A stretch of DNA of 44,572 nt from Pseudomonadota bacterium (GTDB taxonomy: Bacteria > Desulfobacterota > Binatia > UBA9968). Positions 1-44,204 of this stretch are shown here, piece by piece. The notes under the pieces were generated by a model, which was not told where the DNA came from, searched no databases, and saw only the letters and a list, made by a program, of their open reading frames with translations. A program made the translations under genes and the position numbers. The DNA is taken from contig JAJPJQ010000035.1 in the NCBI GenBank assembly GCA_021324155.1, positions 1 to 44,572 of the forward strand, in the 5' to 3' direction. Each line of letters opens with the position of its first letter. Position 1 is the first letter of the stretch.

Positions 1-3309
<3,309 letters not shown>

Positions 3310-18892: not shown

Positions 18893-19489
18893 TCAGCTGC
18901 TCGCGACCTGCGCCTTCGCGCGCAGTTTGGCCATCAGGCCGTCGATTGAATCGTTTCTCAATATCCGCGCGAACTGCGAGCGAAAGTTGGAAGTGAGGCT
19001 CACGTCGTCGATGACGACGTCGTAGACTTTCCAGTCGGCGCCGACACGGCGCATCATGTAGACGATCGGCGTCGCTTCGCCGCTCGAGCCGACGACCGCG
19101 GTGTGCACTTCGGCGGTATCGTTGTCGATGATCTCGCGCCCGTAGATCATCTTCTCGCCGCGGTAGGTGCCGAGCGCGTTGGTATAGGAGGCTTCAGCGA
19201 ACTGGATGAACGTATCGACGAACTCCTTCTCGCGCCCCGCGAGCCGGCTCCAGTCGGCGCCGAGCGATCGGCGCGCCATTTCGGTAAAGTCGAAGCGCGG
19301 AATGATGATCGCGCGCAGCTTGGGCTTGTTGTCGATGAAGTCCTGTTGGCTGTTAAACGTCCGCGTGACCGTTAGGACGCGATCGAGCGTGTCCTGGATC
19401 GCGGCCTTCGGCGAGGAAGCGGCATGGACGATGGAAGCGATAAAAAGCGCGGCAAGCGCGACCTTAATGCACACAAACGTACCCTTCAT
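18893..19489 (-). CDS. mlaC: MlaC/Ttg2D-family periplasmic phospholipid-binding protein
   Basis: 198 residues with a signal peptide cleaved after about residue 23 (IASIVHA|ASSPK). The body has the MlaC pattern: RFDFTEMARRSLGADWSRLAGREKEFVDTF, then YTNALGTYRGEKMIYGRE, IVYMMRRVGADWKVYDVVID and SLTSNFRSQFARIL. These proteins shuttle phospholipids across the periplasm between the outer membrane and the MlaFEDB transporter. No mlaD, E or F gene is adjacent, so here it is a single-gene unit. GGGAG precedes the ATG. It could equally be one of the many stand-alone Tol_Tol_Ttg2 proteins. Confidence 0.87.
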   Translation of the reverse strand: MKGTFVCIKVALAALFIASIVHAASSPKAAIQDTLDRVLTVTRTFNSQQDFIDNKPKLRAIIIPRFDFTEMARRSLGADWSRLAGREKEFVDTFIQFAEASYTNALGTYRGEKMIYGREIIDNDTAEVHTAVVGSSGEATPIVYMMRRVGADWKVYDVVIDDVSLTSNFRSQFARILRNDSIDGLMAKLRAKAQVASS

Positions 19490-37521: not shown

Positions 37522-37825
37522 TCCAAGTCTTTTCCGCTCAATTGCTTTCCACGCCGAACGGCCCCGAGCTCACCGAAGCGCTTCGGAAGAGTTTTTCATT
37601 ATCGCGCGGGCGCATTTTAGAACTACGAGCGCCCTTTTAACAAGAAGAAAATAGCCGGGATTTGTCATTCTTAGCATAGCGAAGAATCTCTCCGATCTTC
37701 ATTCACCGGGGAAGTAGAAGCAGCCTGCGCATAATAAAAAGGCCCGGGCTCTTGCGAGCTCCGGGCCTGGCCCTCTTTATCTCCGGCATCAAGCGGAGAC
37801 ACAGAGGGATCGCGGCGGTCACTCG
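37522..37825. other. Intergenic stretch, upstream of the rhomboid gene, holding one terminator
   Basis: Apart from the repeat-type terminator at 37736-37767, the stretch holds only sequence upstream of the rhomboid start and no gene that I can support. Confidence 0.5.
37736..37767 (-). terminator. rrn-type repeat terminator, copy 1
   Basis: GGCCCGGGCTC (37741-37751) pairs with 37756-37767 with one bulged T and a TTGC loop. Five A on the left give the minus strand a T run, ending the 37826-38275 gene. The 27-bp hairpin is identical to those at 40482 and 43087. Confidence 0.75.
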
Positions 37826-38275
37826 CTAAAAACTATTCGCGGCCTTCTCTTGCTGCATGAGCTTCACGATCACTTCGGCGCAATCCGAGATCGTAATGAG
37901 CTTTTGCCAATTCGGCAGCGCGCTCCCCGCCCGGTCGGTGATGATGATGTAGTCGTCGGCGACGTTCCATAGCGCTTCTCTGAGCGGCCCGCTGCGCAGC
38001 TCCGGCTCCTGGACCAATTTTTTATAGAGCGCGTCGCTAATCACCTGAGGCGTAAGCGTGACGGCCGGACGGCTGCGCATGCTCCAGCCGACGATCGACA
38101 GGATCTGCTCGATCCCGTTCAGATAGCCCAAAACGAATTCCTGGCGCGTAGCGCCGTTATAGCTCATCCAATCCTTGCCGGTGAGCTCCAGCGGCGCGGC
38201 TTTGATCGTGCCGGCGCCGAGAACGGTAAGGCAAAGCAATGCCAGGCAAACGATGGCGCTTTTTTTCCTCTTCAT
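37826..38275 (-). CDS. Secreted protein of unknown function
   Basis: 149 residues from ATG 38275, chosen because it starts a signal peptide (MKRKKSAIVCLALLCLTVLG, cleaved near residue 26). The mature part is helical: WMSYNGATRQEFVLGYLNGI, LTPQVISDALYKKLVQEPEL, and a single Cys near the end (ISDCAEVIVKLMQQ). The pattern of W/Y-N-G and 'FVLGYLNGIEQI' recalls Rap1a/Tai-like periplasmic proteins, but I am not sure. Ended by a repeat-type terminator 60 nt downstream. Confidence 0.68.
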   Translation of the reverse strand: MKRKKSAIVCLALLCLTVLGAGTIKAAPLELTGKDWMSYNGATRQEFVLGYLNGIEQILSIVGWSMRSRPAVTLTPQVISDALYKKLVQEPELRSGPLREALWNVADDYIIITDRAGSALPNWQKLITISDCAEVIVKLMQQEKAANSF

Positions 38276-38386
38276 GGGAACCCCCAATTCCAAGCGTCCG
38301 GGGGCGGAGATAATCACCCGGCCGCTACACCGTCAAGATGACGGGGGTCACGGAATGGGAATGGGGTTGGGACCCGGGGAGGCGAA

Positions 38387-38491
38387 TTATTTCGGCAGAA
38401 ATATGGAAAGCGCCGCGACGATGGCGAGCATCGCGATCATGTACCAGCGCCAAGAGGCGCGAGCGGTTGGACTTCTCGCGGGAAATCTCAC
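38387..38491 (-). CDS. Possible 34-residue single-helix membrane peptide
   Basis: GTG at 38491 opens a 34-codon frame ending at TAA 38389-38387. Residues 16-33 (WYMIAMLAIVAALSIFLP) form one strong membrane helix after a basic N-terminus. There is no ribosome site, so this is only a candidate, but a hydrophobic helix in a non-coding GC-rich region is not expected by chance. Confidence 0.25.
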   Translation of the reverse strand: MRFPARSPTARASWRWYMIAMLAIVAALSIFLPK

Positions 38492-38762
38492 GCAATCGCG
38501 CGCGCGGCGGCAGGTTAAAAGCGTCCGGCATGAAGGTTGATTAGCGCGGCGGCGGGAATGTCCAATCAGGAGCGAACGTCAAGATTCAAGACCTGACCTC
38601 GAATTTACGACTAAAGCCTTCGAAGAAGTGATTCGTAAATTCGAAAACGAAACTTAACTGTCTACTGTGAATTGAATCTATTATAATTCCCCATCTCGTA
38701 GGGACGTCTTAGGGTCAGGCTTGCATAGTAGATGGACGAGACGGAAGCTTTAACGATCATCC
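38492..38762. other. Intergenic stretch with an inverted repeat
   Basis: TCGAATTTACGA (38599-38610) and TCGTAAATTCGA (38633-38644) are exact 12-bp inverted repeats around a 22-nt loop with a central CTTCGAAG. The flanks are AT-rich. No gene is visible; it resembles a small palindromic repeat element. Confidence 0.55.
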
Positions 38763-39872
38763 TCACTCCCCGCGCCACTCCTCGTCGAAATATTCGAAAG
38801 GATCGAAATCGAGGACGACACCTTTCTTCTGCTCGCGCAGCTTGTCGTGGATGAGGCCGCCGATGGCGGCGGCGCCGACGCCCCAGGTGGCGGAGTTTTT
38901 GAAGTAGGTGATCTGCGCGTCCTGCGTGCGTCCCTTTCGTTCGCCGCGAATGACCTGGCCCGCGTCGACGATCTTGTCGGCGATGCGCGGCCGGTCGAGC
39001 GACATCTCCCAGAAGACCGCGGTCTTGTCGAGCTCCTCCTGGCCCCACGCGTTGGTCATCAAGACGTCGGCGCGCTCGAGCGTCGTATGGTCGATCTCGC
39101 GCCGCATCTGCCGCACGTGGCCGCGCTTGAGCAGGCCGATGTTGCTCGACACGATCGAGGTGACGTGCTGCCCCGGCGCGAGCCAGTTGCCGTCGAATAC
39201 CGGGACGTTGGAATTGGTCGCGCAGAGGATGACGTCGGCCGATTCGACGACTCGCTCGGGGCGATCGACGGCGGTGACTTCGATGCCCATGACGCCGGAC
39301 ATCTCGCGCGCGAATGCTTCGCGGGTCGCCGGCGTCGGACTATAAACCCGCGCTTTCTCGACCGTCGGGCGGATCGAGCGCAGAGCCAATAGATGATGCT
39401 TCGCCTGGTCGCCGGCGCCGAACACGCCGGCGGTGCGGCAATCCTTGCGCGCCAGCAGATCGGTGCCGATCATCGAGGCGCAGGCGGTCGGCATCGCGAC
39501 CACGCTGTTTGCGTCGGGCAATTCTTTCGGATGCATCTCGCCGACGAGGATGAGCTTGAGCGCCGCCGTGTCGGGATCGTAAATCACCAGCACGGGGCGG
39601 CCGCGCCGCGGGTAACGCTGCTTGTCGCCGAAGATGCGCACGTGCTCGGCGTGCGTCATGATGCCGGTGGCGCCGTAGGCCGGCGCGCCGCCCTGATGGA
39701 GCGTAATGCGCACGTTCTCGGGAGTGTGCGTGCGCCGGCGCAGCTCGCCGACCAGCGGATCGGCGGCCCAGTTGCGAAAGGCCGCGATCATCGCCTTGAC
39801 GGCCTCCTCCATGGCAAGCAGGCCGCGGTGGTCTTCGGGCCGCGCCAGAATGGCTTTTGCGTTTCTTTCCAT
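38763..39872 (-). CDS. Ornithine cyclodeaminase/mu-crystallin family protein, stand-alone
   Basis: 369 residues, AGAGGA before the ATG. The Rossmann motif is TAGVFGAGDQAKHHLLAL, with ARVYSPTPATREAFAREMSG and ADVILCATNSNVPVFDGNWL in the usual order. It diverges more than the two cluster copies: the Lys region reads YGATGIMTHAE and the Arg region DANSVVAMPTACAS, so neither catalytic residue of characterised enzymes is evident by eye. No binding protein follows. It may be a different functional class, or act as a binding or crystallin-like protein. Confidence 0.78.
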   Translation of the reverse strand: MERNAKAILARPEDHRGLLAMEEAVKAMIAAFRNWAADPLVGELRRRTHTPENVRITLHQGGAPAYGATGIMTHAEHVRIFGDKQRYPRRGRPVLVIYDPDTAALKLILVGEMHPKELPDANSVVAMPTACASMIGTDLLARKDCRTAGVFGAGDQAKHHLLALRSIRPTVEKARVYSPTPATREAFAREMSGVMGIEVTAVDRPERVVESADVILCATNSNVPVFDGNWLAPGQHVTSIVSSNIGLLKRGHVRQMRREIDHTTLERADVLMTNAWGQEELDKTAVFWEMSLDRPRIADKIVDAGQVIRGERKGRTQDAQITYFKNSATWGVGAAAIGGLIHDKLREQKKGVVLDFDPFEYFDEEWRGE

Positions 39873-40138
39873 GTTGTTCCTCTTCGCTGGACGGCGATCA
39901 TAGACCGCCGCGCAAATTTTTCAAGGAGGCGCGTCGAGAAAGAGTTTTGGCTTTCGAGTGTTCAACCGCAATCACCGGTCGATCACGAGCAACCCGGAAT
40001 TCCCGGCGAACCGCTTTAACGAGCCATAAATACCGGCGAGCGGCACGGGTGGAGAGCGGCGCTCGATGCCGGCGCATAATATTCGAGATCGATTAGCTTG
40101 ATCACCGGCGTCGCCTAGATTGCGTCCAGGGGCCGCGG

Positions 40139-40447
40139 CTATCTTTCAAAAGCGCCGATATCACACTGGGCGCCCTGCGGGCGCGAGACGCCCCGCTGGT
40201 CTTCGGACGGGCACTCGGCATCATTCGGCGCCGCGTCGATTGCAGGGCTGCCGGGTACGAGAGCGTGCGTAAGCGTCGGGTCGCCGTTATCGGCAAGCGG
40301 AGCGAGGATCCTGGTGATAGTTATGCCGGCAGCGGGAATAATGTCCGATGCTCCGGGAGAAAAGCCGTTAACGCCAGGATTGCCGTTGGTCCCCCGAGCT
40401 GCGGGTAGAGAATTGGGTTTGAAATGCGATGTGGCGAAACAAAACAC
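40139..40447 (-). pseudogene. Remnant of a choice-of-anchor Q / parallel beta-helix surface protein
   Basis: 102 codons. The C-terminal 70 residues are typical of the end of large secreted beta-helix proteins: TRILAPLADNGDPTLTHALV, PGSPAIDAAPNDAECPSEDQRGVSRPQGAQCDIGAFE, with the two conserved Cys. Such proteins are normally many hundreds of residues long; here the N-terminal bulk and signal peptide are missing and the frame starts in unrelated sequence. A repeat-type terminator and 5S remnant lie immediately upstream, which suggests a rearrangement cut the gene. Confidence 0.7.
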
Positions 40448-40472
40448 TAAATTGAATTTTGAATTCGGATTT

Positions 40473-40508
40473 AAAAAAAAAGGCCCGGGCTCTTGCGAGC
40501 TCCGGGCC
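40473..40508. terminator. rrn-type repeat terminator, copy 2
   Basis: Hairpin 40482-40508, identical in all 27 bases to copy 1, with nine A on the left (a T run on the minus strand) and TTT on the right. It ends the leftward DUF899 gene. Confidence 0.75.
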
Positions 40509-40520
40509 TTTCGATTTAAA

Positions 40521-40567
40521 TCCGGCGGCGGCCTACTATCCCGTACGGCTACGGCATAGTGCGAATC
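40521..40567 (-). pseudogene. Decayed 3' end of a 5S rRNA gene
   Basis: About 47 bases align, with roughly nine mismatches, to the 3' end of the intact 5S at 43875-43989 (shared TCCGGC-GCG-CCTACT and TCCCGTACGGC blocks). They keep the same position and orientation next to the terminator hairpin. The rest of the 5S is absent. Confidence 0.7.
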
Positions 40568-40656
40568 TATAAACCGGTCGATGGAGTCGAAAAAGATCCC
40601 ACCCCTTTCGTGTACTCCGTATTAAGGTTCAAGATCTCACGCCGAAGAACTTTCGC

Positions 40657-41445
40657 TCATCCCGCCTTGCGCTCATACTCGTCGTGGCGCCGCCACCAGA
40701 GGCCGGTCTCATTACGACCCTTCGGTGCGCGGTCGAGCCAGTGGTACACGCCGAAAAAGGGGTCTACGCCGCGCGCATAGGTGGAATAGGCGTGATAGAC
40801 GACGCCGTCTTCGAGCGCGAACGCGCTCATGCCCGGCCTGTCGCGATGGTACGAAGGCACGTCGGTTCCGGACATAGCCGCGAGCTTGGCCTCGACCGAA
40901 TCGCCGCCGCCCTCCTGACCCGCGCGCCAGCGGAACACGTCACTCGTCGGCGCCTCGCGGTGGTAATTGTACTCGAATCCCTGGCGCTGCTGCTCCTCCG
41001 TGAACGACACGTTGAAGTCGAAATTAAAATGGCCGCCGATGGGGGAGGCCCACGGAAACGTCCAGCCCATTCGCCGTTTATAGGCTTGCAGCTTCGCGAG
41101 CGGCGCCCGCGACACCGCCCAGAGCATCACGTCGTGGTTGGCGAGGTGTACGACGGAGCCGTTGAAGGCGTCGGCGATCATCGAGCAGGTGGGGCAGCCG
41201 GCAGCCCAGTCGGGCCCGAACATGAAGTGGTAGACGAGGAGCTGCGAGCGCCCGCGGAAGAGGTCCGGCAGCGAGGCGCTCCCCTCGTCGGTATCGAATC
41301 GATATTCCTTGCCGATGCGGACCCACGGCAGCTCTTGCCGCCGGCGCGCCAGCTCGTCGCCTTGCCGCGTGTAGTCCTTCTCCGCCTTGAGCAGCTCGAG
41401 CCGCGCTGCGATCCACTCTTCCCGTGTTCCGGTCTTATGTGTCAT
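40657..41445 (-). CDS. DUF899 thioredoxin-fold protein
   Basis: 262 residues, GGAGA before the ATG. The DUF899 hallmarks are all present: EWIAARLELLKAEKDYTRQGDELARRRQELPWV, LLVYHFMFGPDWAAGCPTCS with a C84-x2-C87 pair, GSVVHLANHDVMLWAVSRAP, GWTFPWAS, FNFDFNVSF and DPFFGVYHWLDRAPKGRNE. The fold resembles thioredoxin/peroxiredoxin, and a redox role is inferred. It is divergent from a MocR-type regulator 148 nt away, which may control it. Confidence 0.9.
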   Translation of the reverse strand: MTHKTGTREEWIAARLELLKAEKDYTRQGDELARRRQELPWVRIGKEYRFDTDEGSASLPDLFRGRSQLLVYHFMFGPDWAAGCPTCSMIADAFNGSVVHLANHDVMLWAVSRAPLAKLQAYKRRMGWTFPWASPIGGHFNFDFNVSFTEEQQRQGFEYNYHREAPTSDVFRWRAGQEGGGDSVEAKLAAMSGTDVPSYHRDRPGMSAFALEDGVVYHAYSTYARGVDPFFGVYHWLDRAPKGRNETGLWWRRHDEYERKAG

Positions 41446-41534
41446 CGCTTTGGTCTCCTTCCTTTTTTATGACTTGACGTTTTCCGCAACCCACGCAAAA
41501 ACGTTAGCAAGCGCGAAGGACCGGCGGTAGAGAG

Positions 41535-41565
41535 CCAATTCTTGCCATTTGCGCTAGACCAATTT
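41535..41565. promoter_or_regulatory. Direct repeat in the divergent DUF899-mocR intergenic region
   Basis: CCAATTC (41535-41541) and CCAATTTC (41559-41566) are direct repeats 24 bp apart, a little over two helical turns. MocR/PdxR regulators often bind directly repeated half-sites, so this is a candidate operator for both divergent genes. Confidence 0.4.
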
Positions 41566-41593
41566 CGGAGCGACAGCGTACAGTGAGCAGCTT

Positions 41594-43015
41594 ATGACTT
41601 TTCACGTCAGCCTGGTGGGACGCCAAAACCTCAGGACGGAGATTTACCGTCAGATGCGCGACGCGATATTGAACGGCCTGGTGTCTCCCGGCGATCCGCT
41701 GCCGCCCAGCCGCGAGCTTGCACGGACACTGAACGTGTCGCGCATGACTGTAACGGGCGCCTACGATCGGCTCAGAGTCGAAGGCTTCACGAACACTCGC
41801 ATCGGCGCCGGCACATTCGTTAGCGAGCAAGTTGCTGCTCGCGACCGAAGCACGCGAGATCACCCGGGCATGCTTAAAGCCCGCCGCGTGTGGCGTTCGG
41901 TCGAACTTTCTTCCGCGTTCGTCCATACGGCCGCGTATGATTTCCGCACCGGCATTCCCGATGCTTCTATGTTTCCGCACAGTCAGTGGCGCCGGCTGAT
42001 GACCCGGGCCTTGCGCAGTCATGCCCCGGGCGTTCTCTTGTACGGCCATCCGGCCGGTTGCCCGGAGCTGCGTGCGGCGATCGCGCGTCATATCGGCATC
42101 TCGCGTGGCGTTATCGCTTCCGCTGACGACGTGACGGTGACGAATGGAACCCAGCAAGCGCTCGACATTCTCGCCCGCGTGCTGCTTGCGCCGGGCGATC
42201 GCATTGTTGTGGAGGATCCCGGCTACCGGCCGCCGCGTCGTTTATTTGAATCGCTCGGCGTGCGCGTCATCGGTGTGCCAGTGGATCGTGAAGGAATCGC
42301 GGTCGACAAGATTCCGCGGAATGTCCGCGCGGTGTACGTGACGCCGTCGCATCAGTATCCACTCGGCCTCGCGATGACACTCGCTCGACGGCAAGCGCTG
42401 CTGGCCTGGGCGGAACGAAATGCCACAGCCATCATTGAAGACGATTACGATAGCGAATTTCGGTTTGGAGGACGACCTCTGGACCCGCTTTATACCCTCG
42501 ACAGGTCGGGCAGGGTGATCTACATCGGCTCGTTCTCCAAAACTTTACTTCCAAGCCTGCGGCTCGGCTTCGTCGTCGCGCCTCCATCTTTGCGAGCCGC
42601 CGTGCATAAGGCAAAGTTTGTCTGCGATTGGCATTCGCCCTCATTAGCGCAACTGGCGCTGGCCCATTTCTTAAATGACGGCGGATTTGTTCGCCACATC
42701 CGAAACGTCAATGCGGTTTACAAGGAGCGGCATGCGATTGTCACCGAGACGCTCAATCGAGACTTTGCCAATCATCTCGAATTGATTCCTGCCAACACCG
42801 GTCTGCACGTGACGGCCGTCGCGCGTAAGGCCTCCGCCGATCAAATCGCGGCAGTCGCGCGGCGAGCGGGTGAAGACGGCGTCGTCATTCAAGTACTGTC
42901 GTTCTTCGCCGTTGGCAAGGCAGAACTAGCAGGCGTCGTTCTGGGATACGGCGGAGTCGCCACGCATCGAATTGAAGAAGGTCTGCGCCGGCTGCGACGA
43001 TGCTTCCGAAATTGA
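41594..43015 (+). CDS. MocR/PdxR-type GntR regulator with PLP aminotransferase domain
   Basis: 473 residues. An N-terminal GntR winged helix (IYRQMRDAILNGLVSPGDPLPPSRELARTL, residues about 15-75) is joined to a class I aminotransferase fold: TNGTQQALDILARVLLAPGD, EDPGYRPPRRLFESLGV, IIEDDYDSEFRF and the PLP Lys316 in GSFSKTLLPSLRLGF. Such regulators sense PLP or amino-acid derivatives; some members control PLP synthesis or GABA use. Divergent to the DUF899 gene and followed by a terminator. ATG with a weak ribosome site. Confidence 0.9.
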   Translation: MTFHVSLVGRQNLRTEIYRQMRDAILNGLVSPGDPLPPSRELARTLNVSRMTVTGAYDRLRVEGFTNTRIGAGTFVSEQVAARDRSTRDHPGMLKARRVWRSVELSSAFVHTAAYDFRTGIPDASMFPHSQWRRLMTRALRSHAPGVLLYGHPAGCPELRAAIARHIGISRGVIASADDVTVTNGTQQALDILARVLLAPGDRIVVEDPGYRPPRRLFESLGVRVIGVPVDREGIAVDKIPRNVRAVYVTPSHQYPLGLAMTLARRQALLAWAERNATAIIEDDYDSEFRFGGRPLDPLYTLDRSGRVIYIGSFSKTLLPSLRLGFVVAPPSLRAAVHKAKFVCDWHSPSLAQLALAHFLNDGGFVRHIRNVNAVYKERHAIVTETLNRDFANHLELIPANTGLHVTAVARKASADQIAAVARRAGEDGVVIQVLSFFAVGKAELAGVVLGYGGVATHRIEEGLRRLRRCFRN

Positions 43016-43086
43016 CTGCCAACCCGCCGCGAATTGAGATCAGACTTTTATACTCCCGACAACCTTGCTTCCCCGACAATCTTCAA

Positions 43087-43117
43087 GGCCCGGGCTCTTG
43101 CGAGCTCCGGGCCTTTT
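43087..43117. terminator. rrn-type repeat terminator, copy 3
   Basis: Hairpin 43087-43113, identical in all 27 bases to copies 1 and 2, followed by TTTT on the plus strand. It ends the MocR-type gene rightwards and can end the convergent reductase gene. Confidence 0.75.
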
Positions 43118-43121
43118 CGAT

Positions 43122-43144
43122 TTTAAATCCGGCGGCGACCTACT
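43122..43144 (-). pseudogene. Very short remnant of a 5S rRNA 3' end
   Basis: TTTAAATCCGGCGGCGACCT plus ACT matches the stretch next to the intact 5S terminator (43868-43892) except for a few bases. It shares the GGCGGCG variant with the copy at 40521. The match ends abruptly 15 nt before the reductase gene stop. Confidence 0.55.
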
Positions 43145-43159
43145 TTTGAATTCGGCGCT

Positions 43160-43765
43160 TCACGGGGATTTCGGGCGCGCATAGCGGAGCATCACGTCGC
43201 CGGACTTGAGCGTCTTGGCTTCCAGTAATTCCAATCGCGAGCGCTGCGATACGCCGGCGATCAACGGCCGGCCGCTGCCGAGGAGGACCGGGCAGACTGC
43301 GAACTGATACTCGTCGATCAAACCGTGCTGCGTAAGCTGCGCGACGACCGAGCCGCCGAAGACGATGATGTCTTTGCCGGGTTGCTCCTTCAGGCGTTTG
43401 ATCTCACGCGGGTCGAGCTCGCGGAGGACGCGCGAGTTTCTCCAGTCAACACGGTCGAGGGTCCTGGAGAACACGAGCTTGGTCATCTTATTGAACGCGA
43501 TCGCAATCGCGCCGTGCTCCGGAGATCTGCGTCCGCAATTGTGCGGGTCCGGCACCGTGCCGGCCTCGTCGACGGCGATGCGGCCCCAGAACGCCGCGAA
43601 GATTTCGTAGGTCCGGCGGCCGAAGAGAATCGTGTCCATGCTCGAGACATCGCGCGCCGCCATTTGGGCCTGCTCTTGGTCGGGCACGACCCAGTCCAAG
43701 TCGCCGACGGGCCCCGCAAAATATCCGTCAGCCGACAGCCAATTAAACGTAACGATCCGCCGCAT
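43160..43765 (-). CDS. Dihydrofolate reductase-like (RibD C-terminal domain) protein
   Basis: 201 residues; ATG at 43765 gives the family N-terminus RRIVTFNWLSADGYFAGPVGD. Further landmarks are DTILFGRRTYEIFAAFWGR, NKMTKLVFSRTLDRVDWRNSRVL, GKDIIVFGGSVVAQLTQHGLIDEYQFAV, and PVLLGSGRPLIAGVSQRSRLELLE. This is the stand-alone RibD-C / YyaP-like reductase fold that binds NADPH. The substrate is unknown; it is not a classical folate enzyme. Convergent with the MocR-type gene. Confidence 0.88.
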   Translation of the reverse strand: MRRIVTFNWLSADGYFAGPVGDLDWVVPDQEQAQMAARDVSSMDTILFGRRTYEIFAAFWGRIAVDEAGTVPDPHNCGRRSPEHGAIAIAFNKMTKLVFSRTLDRVDWRNSRVLRELDPREIKRLKEQPGKDIIVFGGSVVAQLTQHGLIDEYQFAVCPVLLGSGRPLIAGVSQRSRLELLEAKTLKSGDVMLRYARPKSP

Positions 43766-43828
43766 CGGCTTCAGTCTAGCATTCGGGCGTCTGAGGGAAA
43801 ACGGCATAGCAGCATCGGCCGCGGGCGT

Positions 43829-43861
43829 AAAAAAGGCCCGGGCTCTTGCGAGCCCCGGGCC
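43829..43861 (-). terminator. rrn operon terminator (parent-like copy of the repeat)
   Basis: The hairpin at 43835-43861 lies 13 nt after the 5S 3' end, with six A on the left giving a T run on the minus strand. It differs from copies 1-3 at one base of the right arm, which makes its pairing better. Confidence 0.85.
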
Positions 43862-43874
43862 TTTTCAATTTAAA

Positions 43875-43989
43875 TCCGGCAGCGACCTACTCTCCCGTAC
43901 GGCAACCGCACAGTACCATCGGCGCTGGAGGGCTTAACGACCGAGTTCGGGATGGGATCGGGTGTGACACCTCCGCTATCGCCACCGGA
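43875..43989 (-). rRNA. rrf: 5S ribosomal RNA
   Basis: The minus strand reads CCGGUGGCGAUAGCGGAGGU at the 5' side, then the conserved CCCGAUCCCAUCCCGAACUC and GCGCCGAUGGUACUG blocks, and ends GGUCGCUGCCGG, whose end pairs with the 5' CCGGUGGCG. The length is about 113-115 nt. The ends are set by the terminal helix. Confidence 0.92.
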
Positions 43990-44204
43990 AAGCGTTTCGA
44001 CGGCCATAAATGCCCGCCTGCTGCGTTGCGCTCGCCGCGCTCGCTCGACGTACTGGACTTAAGTACGCCTGCGCTCACGCGACGTCGCGCGCCTTGCATG
44101 CAGAACATTTCTGACCGTCTCAAAGAGCAAGAGATTCTCTCACAACTGAATACGGGATTCGGAAAAGAATAGAACGTGTACGCGTGAAGTGGGAGTAGTA
44201 AATA
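43990..44204 (-). other. 23S-5S rRNA spacer with an inverted-repeat insert
   Basis: About 215 nt. The part at about 44005-44105 holds CGTACT (44049-44054) and AGTACG (44062-44067) around ACTTAAGT, flanked by GCGCTCGC-type repeats. It resembles a dispersed palindromic repeat element and lengthens the spacer. No tRNA is seen. Confidence 0.6.

Follow-up and report, generated by a model that had tools for sequence, protein, structure and literature searches.

Displaced 3′ parts of the 5S rRNA gene downstream of a Binatia rRNA operon resemble joints of a small gene-cassette array

The distal end of a ribosomal RNA (rRNA) operon (rrn) in an uncultured bacterium of the class Binatia (GTDB lineage UBA9968) raises the question of how copies of the operon's terminator, some still attached to remnants of the 5S rRNA gene, came to lie beside unrelated genes. 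The stretch of DNA analysed, referred to here as the window, is the 44572 bp contig JAJPJQ010000035.1 (GenBank assembly GCA_021324155.1). This is contig C52 of genome G000 (4,800,449 bases in 53 contigs, 98.13% complete), and its right end consists of the end of the 23S rRNA gene and a 5S rRNA gene. The answer that we favour, with a probability of roughly 0.48, is that gene cassettes inserted successively at the 5S gene would form a small tandem array, with the four terminator hairpins of the window as its joints. The pattern looks like a gene-capture system acting on an rRNA gene and not like the simple decay of duplicated DNA.

The intact 5S gene (43874–43989, minus strand; Rfam RF00001, 101.3 bits), at the proximal end of the putative array, is followed by the rrn terminator hairpin (43835–43861, minus strand), a stretch that together with its T-run folds at −29.2 kcal/mol. 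An initial annotation of this DNA had reported the 27-bp hairpin four times, in three identical copies and one with a single base change, and the scan agreed: GGCCCGGGCTCTTGCGAGCTCCGGGCC was found exactly at 37741, 40482 and 43087 and, with one T replaced by C, at 43835, and no match with up to 3 mismatches was present in 100 dinucleotide shuffles of the window. A genome-wide search, also proposed in the initial annotation, recovered only these four hairpins (up to 3 mismatches) from G000, all on one strand, in the orientation of the 5S terminator and at most 6.3 kb 3′ of the sole 5S gene of the genome. The displaced hairpins, all on the minus strand, are numbered from the distal end of the array as copy 1 (37741–37767), copy 2 (40482–40508) and copy 3 (43087–43113). 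Terminator activity is predicted from a GC-rich hairpin followed by a T-run at copy 1, at copy 2, where the T-run is long, and at the rrn; at copy 3 this holds on the opposite strand only, as the T-run is gone in the rrn orientation (CCGGGCCTTGAAG) and four T remain on the other strand, where the side of a MocR-type gene retains GGGCCTTTTC. At copy 2, the flanks (40466–40524) lengthen the palindrome (CGGATTT...AAATCCG), giving a longer inverted repeat around the hairpin.

Displaced 5S tails, on the minus strand, adjoin copy 2 (40509–40560; 5S nucleotide (nt) 76 to the 3′ end, plus linker) and copy 3 (43114–43144; nt 99 to the 3′ end, plus linker). Their local alignment scores of 76 and 47 exceeded the shuffle maxima of 32 and 34, respectively, with none of 2000 shuffles reaching the score in either case, and their sequence-profile E-values were 3.6e-17 and 1e-9. 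The tails are thus genuine by the shuffle check that the initial annotation had named, and its view that copies 2 and 3 originated from distal ends of an rrn and not by convergence is upheld. No 5S tail was detectable at copy 1, where the local score of 18 was reached by 711 of 2000 shuffles and the profile match (E 3.3e-4) is mostly hairpin. The contrast between identical hairpins and decayed tails suggests that the terminators were either kept for use or homogenised. The displaced copies need not derive from the current rrn terminator, as had been claimed. The displaced hairpin is one base from that of its own rrn and likewise one base from that of locus L054 in a relative. The base changes that had been taken as derived and shared among the displaced copies are present but not specific to this locus: the right-arm base (the A of GGAGCTC) is also found in displaced terminators of L054, L053 and L042, and the CGATTT-type changes (GCCGCCGG) are also found in the intact 5S genes of genomes G003, G007 and G019.

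A survey with a sequence profile covered 41 loci (the window, L040–L059 and L063–L082; L081 was excluded as it overlaps L057), and genes near the fragments were called by our own script. Profile matches with E > 0.01 (among them single matches in L040, L078 and L057) and opposite-strand matches to the same palindrome were dropped before counting, and pieces split by inserts were merged. The profile identified 14 intact 5S genes and, in 15 genomes, 49 displaced fragments at 25 loci, a count that is not a density since most loci were chosen for having hits, and that includes L066, the sole locus of G039, which starts at a contig edge and may be a contig-cut intact 5S gene. Fourteen of the 15 genomes belong to the family of the window and one (G023) to another family of the same order. 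A displaced fragment is a 5S gene cut on its 5′ side, accompanied by a terminator and often located just 3′ of a gene; the nearest upstream gene was on the same strand for 33 of 44 fragments and, for 20 of these 33, its end was no more than 36 bp away. Such structures are referred to below as joints.

When the 14 loci with an intact 5S gene were compared with their own downstream DNA, L042 (G006) and L046 (G019) were each found to carry two in-line displaced 5S 3′ parts. A displaced fragment in direct orientation on the same contig as an intact 5S gene was found in the window, L042, L046 and, weakly, L043, and the other joints are on contigs without an intact 5S gene. Additional pieces located on other contigs were recovered with a model of the 5S 3′ part (R1), which at E ≤ 0.01 had a match, intact genes counted, in 26 of the 35 genomes of the order. 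In a scan of the class at E ≤ 1e-4, 89 of 148 genomes matched, 22 inside the order and 67 outside, and more than one match was found in 6 of the 22 versus 2 of the 67 (G089 and G131), although fragments outside the order may be missed with a model built from this order and strict filters. A hairpin similar to that of the window (up to 3 mismatches) was found in 6 of 39 genomes, G000 included, and the exact hairpin in none of the named genomes. A candidate split 5S gene in L070 was rejected, as the match to the 23S–5S spacer proved to be another repeat and not the 5′ half of a 5S gene. This spacer repeat is present in L045 (18123–18236) and the window (near 44000–44110), and in L070 (4075–4196) it also occurs away from the rrn.

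The displaced fragments share a left edge. The leftmost of the 49 begins at nt 15, and among the 34 non-edge fragments starting at or before nt 75, 24 start at nt 34–49 (binomial p 1e-9 versus uniform, a value that overstates the certainty as the fragments are related and not independent), with the remainder scattered at nt 15–32 (4/34) and nt 52–74 (6/34). Identity to the 5S gene among 29 anchored fragments was 0.10–0.48 at nt 1–37, 0.31–0.52 at nt 38–43 and 0.55–0.86 at nt 44–49, measured by an ungapped leftward walk from an anchor at nt 50–64, where the high values are partly an anchor effect. Through nt 37, identity does not exceed background; it is high from nt 44 onward, next to the helix III hairpin loop, which in the Rfam structure comprises 7 nt (nt 35–41) with paired arms. 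The left edge at nt 38–44 adjoins this loop, with a spread of starts among fragments that are not independent, and the three best-preserved fragments (L042, L046 and L053, from three genera) start at profile positions 37, 34 and 34, respectively.

Of 16 large inserts inside aligned joints, 15 were located at the tip of helix IV, a proportion to be read with the bias of the structure model toward placing inserts in loops and with the finding that most split sequence-profile matches break at the same tip. These inserts may indicate that the folded form matters, or merely the target preference of a repeat. Stretches resembling repetitive extragenic palindromic (REP) sequences (e.g. GTTCGACTAAGCTCACGACAGG) were seen in the 5S fragments of L042, L053, L056, L057, L063, L067, L068 and others, where they occupy the tip of helix IV. 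Pairing was retained at 86.3% in the fragments versus 78.4% in a neutral simulation, with 0 of 2000 simulations reaching the observed value (19 of 32 fragments used), but retained pairing was set aside as proof because the fragments were found and aligned with the structure model and the changes may predate displacement.

Units consisting of genes and a joint recur in new contexts. A PIN/RHH toxin–antitoxin unit is common to L053 (G005) and L057 (G003), with 74% DNA identity and different neighbourhoods, and a YceI gene with its joint occurs three times in G006 (L042, L067 and L075), again in differing neighbourhoods. One unit is common to L068 and L072 (77% identity), which are from genomes in different families (G013 and G023). 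A MlaC gene is common to G005, G022 and, directly after the rrn, G003 (L053, L054 and L040), but as a MlaC homologue is also found away from the array at 18893–19489 in the window, this gene is weak evidence for movement. In L082 (G014), a unit is located between two joints, and L077 in a genome of the same genus (G006) has one joint only, the left part of which resembles the left joint of L082 and the right part the right joint. These two loci, compared by eye, are read as a filled/empty pair, the sole one seen. The terminator travels with the downstream gene in L046/L079 and in L077/L082.

An antisense DoxX-like gene follows the 5S gene in G004 and in G023. In G004 (L041), the rrn is followed by DoxX and a flavin adenine dinucleotide (FAD) dehydrogenase gene, and the same two genes (82% and 80% identical) are found in the same order and orientation in G003, ~4 kb past a 5S joint array that is rich in toxin–antitoxin genes (L057). 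The genes between the joints of this array (L057:1–14000, contig C13 of G003) include Fic, Phd/PIN, MazE, RHH/PIN and TOTE-primase helicase genes, a defence-island-like cargo. In L053, a group II intron domain (RF02001, 98.1 bits; positions 1–149, minus strand), cut by the contig end, starts ~80 bp after the terminator of the last joint.

Under the cassette reading, each unit would carry one or a few genes together with the rrn terminator and the 3′ part of a 5S gene (from ~nt 38–44). On arrival, a unit would recombine at the hairpin loop of helix III in the resident 5S gene, and the 3′ part that it brings would complete the gene, hence 5S would stay functional, while the former 3′ part and terminator would be displaced downstream, beyond the incoming genes. 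Repeated insertion would generate the order 5S–gene–joint–gene–joint, in which the outer joints would deteriorate and the hairpins would be retained as terminators of the cargo. The most likely agent would be a trans-acting, site-specific recombinase with a role like that of tyrosine integrases at tRNA genes. The spread of a terminator cassette, one of two explanations offered in the initial annotation, comes close to this, although the moving unit appears to include a gene, the terminator and the 3′ part of the 5S gene. We read the copies in the window as a putative old and short example of an array of gene cassettes at 5S. The further proposal of a cassette system in one bacterial family, in which cassettes enter the rRNA operon harmlessly and the 5S-derived sites act like attC sites for a trans-acting recombinase that also carries cassettes elsewhere, is tentative and on present evidence unlikely.

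Several observations weigh against the cassette reading, in addition to the choice of loci, the relatedness of the fragments and the scatter of their starts described above. The tails in the window begin at nt 76 and 99, far past the usual edge. The edge at nt 38–44 is therefore invisible there, and the reading is unobtainable from the window alone without relatives. Ten of the 14 intact-5S loci, several of them short, had no displaced fragment at E ≤ 0.01, and the similar hairpins in G024 and G025 have no nearby 5S fragment. The joint array of G003 is mid-contig, on a different contig from the intact 5S gene of that genome, and no rRNA was found ahead of it. Some joints follow core genes off the rrn, identified by eye as nuoN in G015 (L074) and tyrS in G022 (L071), hence joints are not confined to the present rrn. 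The tyrS case is tempered by the proximity of tyrS to the rrn in most fetched relatives, the gene lying ahead of 16S in 10 of 17 fetched loci, G000 included. No joint after nuoN was found in the other fetched loci, and empty sites at nuoN and tyrS were sought and abandoned as the flanks were too diverged for alignment. The crossover in L082/L077 is near the 3′ end of the 5S sequence and not at the loop, and the unit size is only ~0.7–3 kb. Terminators after a shared gene are also alike (L053/L054 and L042/L067), which would not be expected under a simple definition of the unit.

The search for an enzyme adds to these points. A local IntI plus Xer profile, which leaves serine recombinases outside its scope, found a tyrosine recombinase in none of the 41 loci; it recovered both control loci, one of which had also supplied a seed. 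Nine of the 35 genomes of the order had an integron integrase (IntI) above the cut-off, and the loci concerned (L103–L122) had no 5S fragment save for one borderline match. The IntI genes in these loci are often at contig ends and often partial or present in several copies per genome, and a conserved stretch precedes IntI in five loci. A heuristic scan for attC-like pairs (RYYYAAC/GTTRRRY boxes), unvalidated on known attC sites, found none in L053, L057 or most of the scanned IntI loci and one pair each in L104 and L116, and L103 and L104 showed no evident family of attC-like repeats. An integron explanation was therefore rejected: the attC scan was nearly empty, IntI was not beside the joints, and the region upstream of the five IntI genes had no link to 5S by eye.

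Phage and plasmid carriers were also considered and rejected. The exact pattern of the 5S 3′ part was found in no viral contig. Nineteen records of a phage collection matched at 60–90% identity, each with query coverage of 80% or more, and those annotated among the 15 matches listed were 5S rRNA. Of 210 matching plasmid records, the best 15 were taken as ordinary 5S genes without individual checks. Literature searches limited to open-licence papers listed none whose title or abstract opening deals with cassette joints derived from 5S or with islands that target 5S, and a word search found no rRNA term in the main texts of PMC12884075 and PMC8371274.

Plain homologous recombination is a serious rival, somewhat unlikely in our estimation, in which DNA from relatives would enter via the 5S–terminator sequence and unequal crossing-over between joints would shuffle the genes. 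The joints provide shared sequence of up to ~130 bp, a 161-bp duplicate in L057 (96% identical) spans a joint's 3′ part together with the adjoining flank, and L082/L077 can be explained by a crossover anywhere in the repeat, the observed one being near the 5S 3′ end. The absence of a tyrosine recombinase from the loci searched is consistent with this, as recombination via repeats accounts for the shuffling without an enzyme. However, it does not account for the common left edge near nt 38–44, nor does it predict the closeness of the joints to stop codons.

An improbable alternative is a dispersed element consisting of the 5S 3′ part and terminator, which would insert 3′ of resident genes in the manner of a non-autonomous transposon while the genes themselves stayed in place. 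The joints after nuoN and tyrS in single genomes fit this explanation, as does the junction in L064, which is in the last codons of a transporter-like gene whose relative in L074 ends differently and lacks a joint at that point; nor is every copy of YceI in L057 followed by a joint. However, entire units of gene plus joint recur in various contexts and across families, and L082 and L077 differ by a gene and not by a joint alone.

Local tandem duplication at the distal end of the rrn with subsequent decay, the other explanation given in the initial annotation, is less probable again. It agrees with copies that are in line, in one orientation and beside the rrn, with 5S tails shortened or lost, but it is insufficient because the intervening genes are mutually unrelated, two of them being patchy among relatives, and because the same type of joint, with other genes and the shared 5S breakpoint, recurs in other genera. 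From the rrn outwards, putative cargo unit 1 is a RibD_C-type reductase gene (43160–43765, minus strand; PF01872, E 4.4e-20) ending beside copy 3. Unit 2 comprises a MocR-type (GntR-aminotransferase) gene in the opposite orientation (41594–43015, plus strand; PF00392 and PF00155) and a DUF899 gene (40657–41445, minus strand; PF05988, E 2.5e-93). Unit 3 includes a gene of the ornithine cyclodeaminase/mu-crystallin family (38763–39872, minus strand; PF02423, E 1.1e-34). A gene without an assigned family (37826–38317, minus strand), putatively secreted according to the initial annotation, ends 36 bp ahead of the copy 1 match, and its 149-aa form starting at ATG 38275 had no Pfam match. RibD_C homologues (E ≤ 1e-25) were found in 2 and DUF899 homologues (E ≤ 1e-40) in 5 of 25 genomes of the family, G000 included in both cases, and no 5S fragment was found at the loci of the relatives (L176, L178–L182). 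The genes ended by the hairpins are indeed unrelated by Pfam, as had been stated, but copy 3 follows the RibD_C gene in the rrn orientation and not the MocR gene: its profile match starts 4 bp past the end of the RibD_C gene and the MocR gene converges from the other side.

Chance or convergence of terminator sequences, for which only the missing 5S tail of copy 1 speaks, is negligible given zero expected hairpin matches, and is refuted for copies 2 and 3 by tails unmatched in 2000 shuffles.

If the cassette reading is correct, an essential rRNA gene would be both the entry point for cassettes and the source of their recombination sites, in a form of integron-like gene gain. To our knowledge, the origin of integron cassette sites is unsettled, whereas here the ancestor of the site would be known. 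Truncated 5S hits in these genomes would then be joints and not assembly noise, and 5S joints could serve as a marker for accessory genes in this uncultured lineage.

Among known systems, REP-like dispersed palindromes and intrinsic terminators are short hairpins found 3′ of genes, but the hairpins described here differ in that they are linked to 5S 3′ parts, with order and orientation always the same. Integron cassettes form arrays of small units with an attC site just past the gene stop, carry toxin–antitoxin cargo and have an inserted stretch at the hairpin tip of the site. The joints resemble them in the arrays of small units, the site after the stop, the toxin–antitoxin cargo and the inserted stretch at a hairpin tip, and differ in that the sites are 5S-derived, a terminator is located between units, no IntI is beside the arrays and the heuristic scan found no attC-like pair in L053 or L057. 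Islands at tRNA and transfer-messenger RNA (tmRNA) genes leave a restored gene and a displaced fragment, with 3′ fragments in 3760 of 3919 islands according to the Islander report (PMC4383910), and at tRNA genes the anticodon loop, usually of 7 bp, matches the integrase overlap region with its palindromic arms, according to PMC8371274. The arrays described here differ from such islands in having a 5S rRNA target, units of ~0.7–3 kb without a tyrosine integrase and many joints away from an intact target gene. As in these islands, the target would be an RNA gene, its 3′ part is displaced, the fragments keep the orientation of the target, and arrays of several fragments are formed; the breakpoint may likewise fall beside an RNA hairpin loop, here of 7 nt between paired arms.

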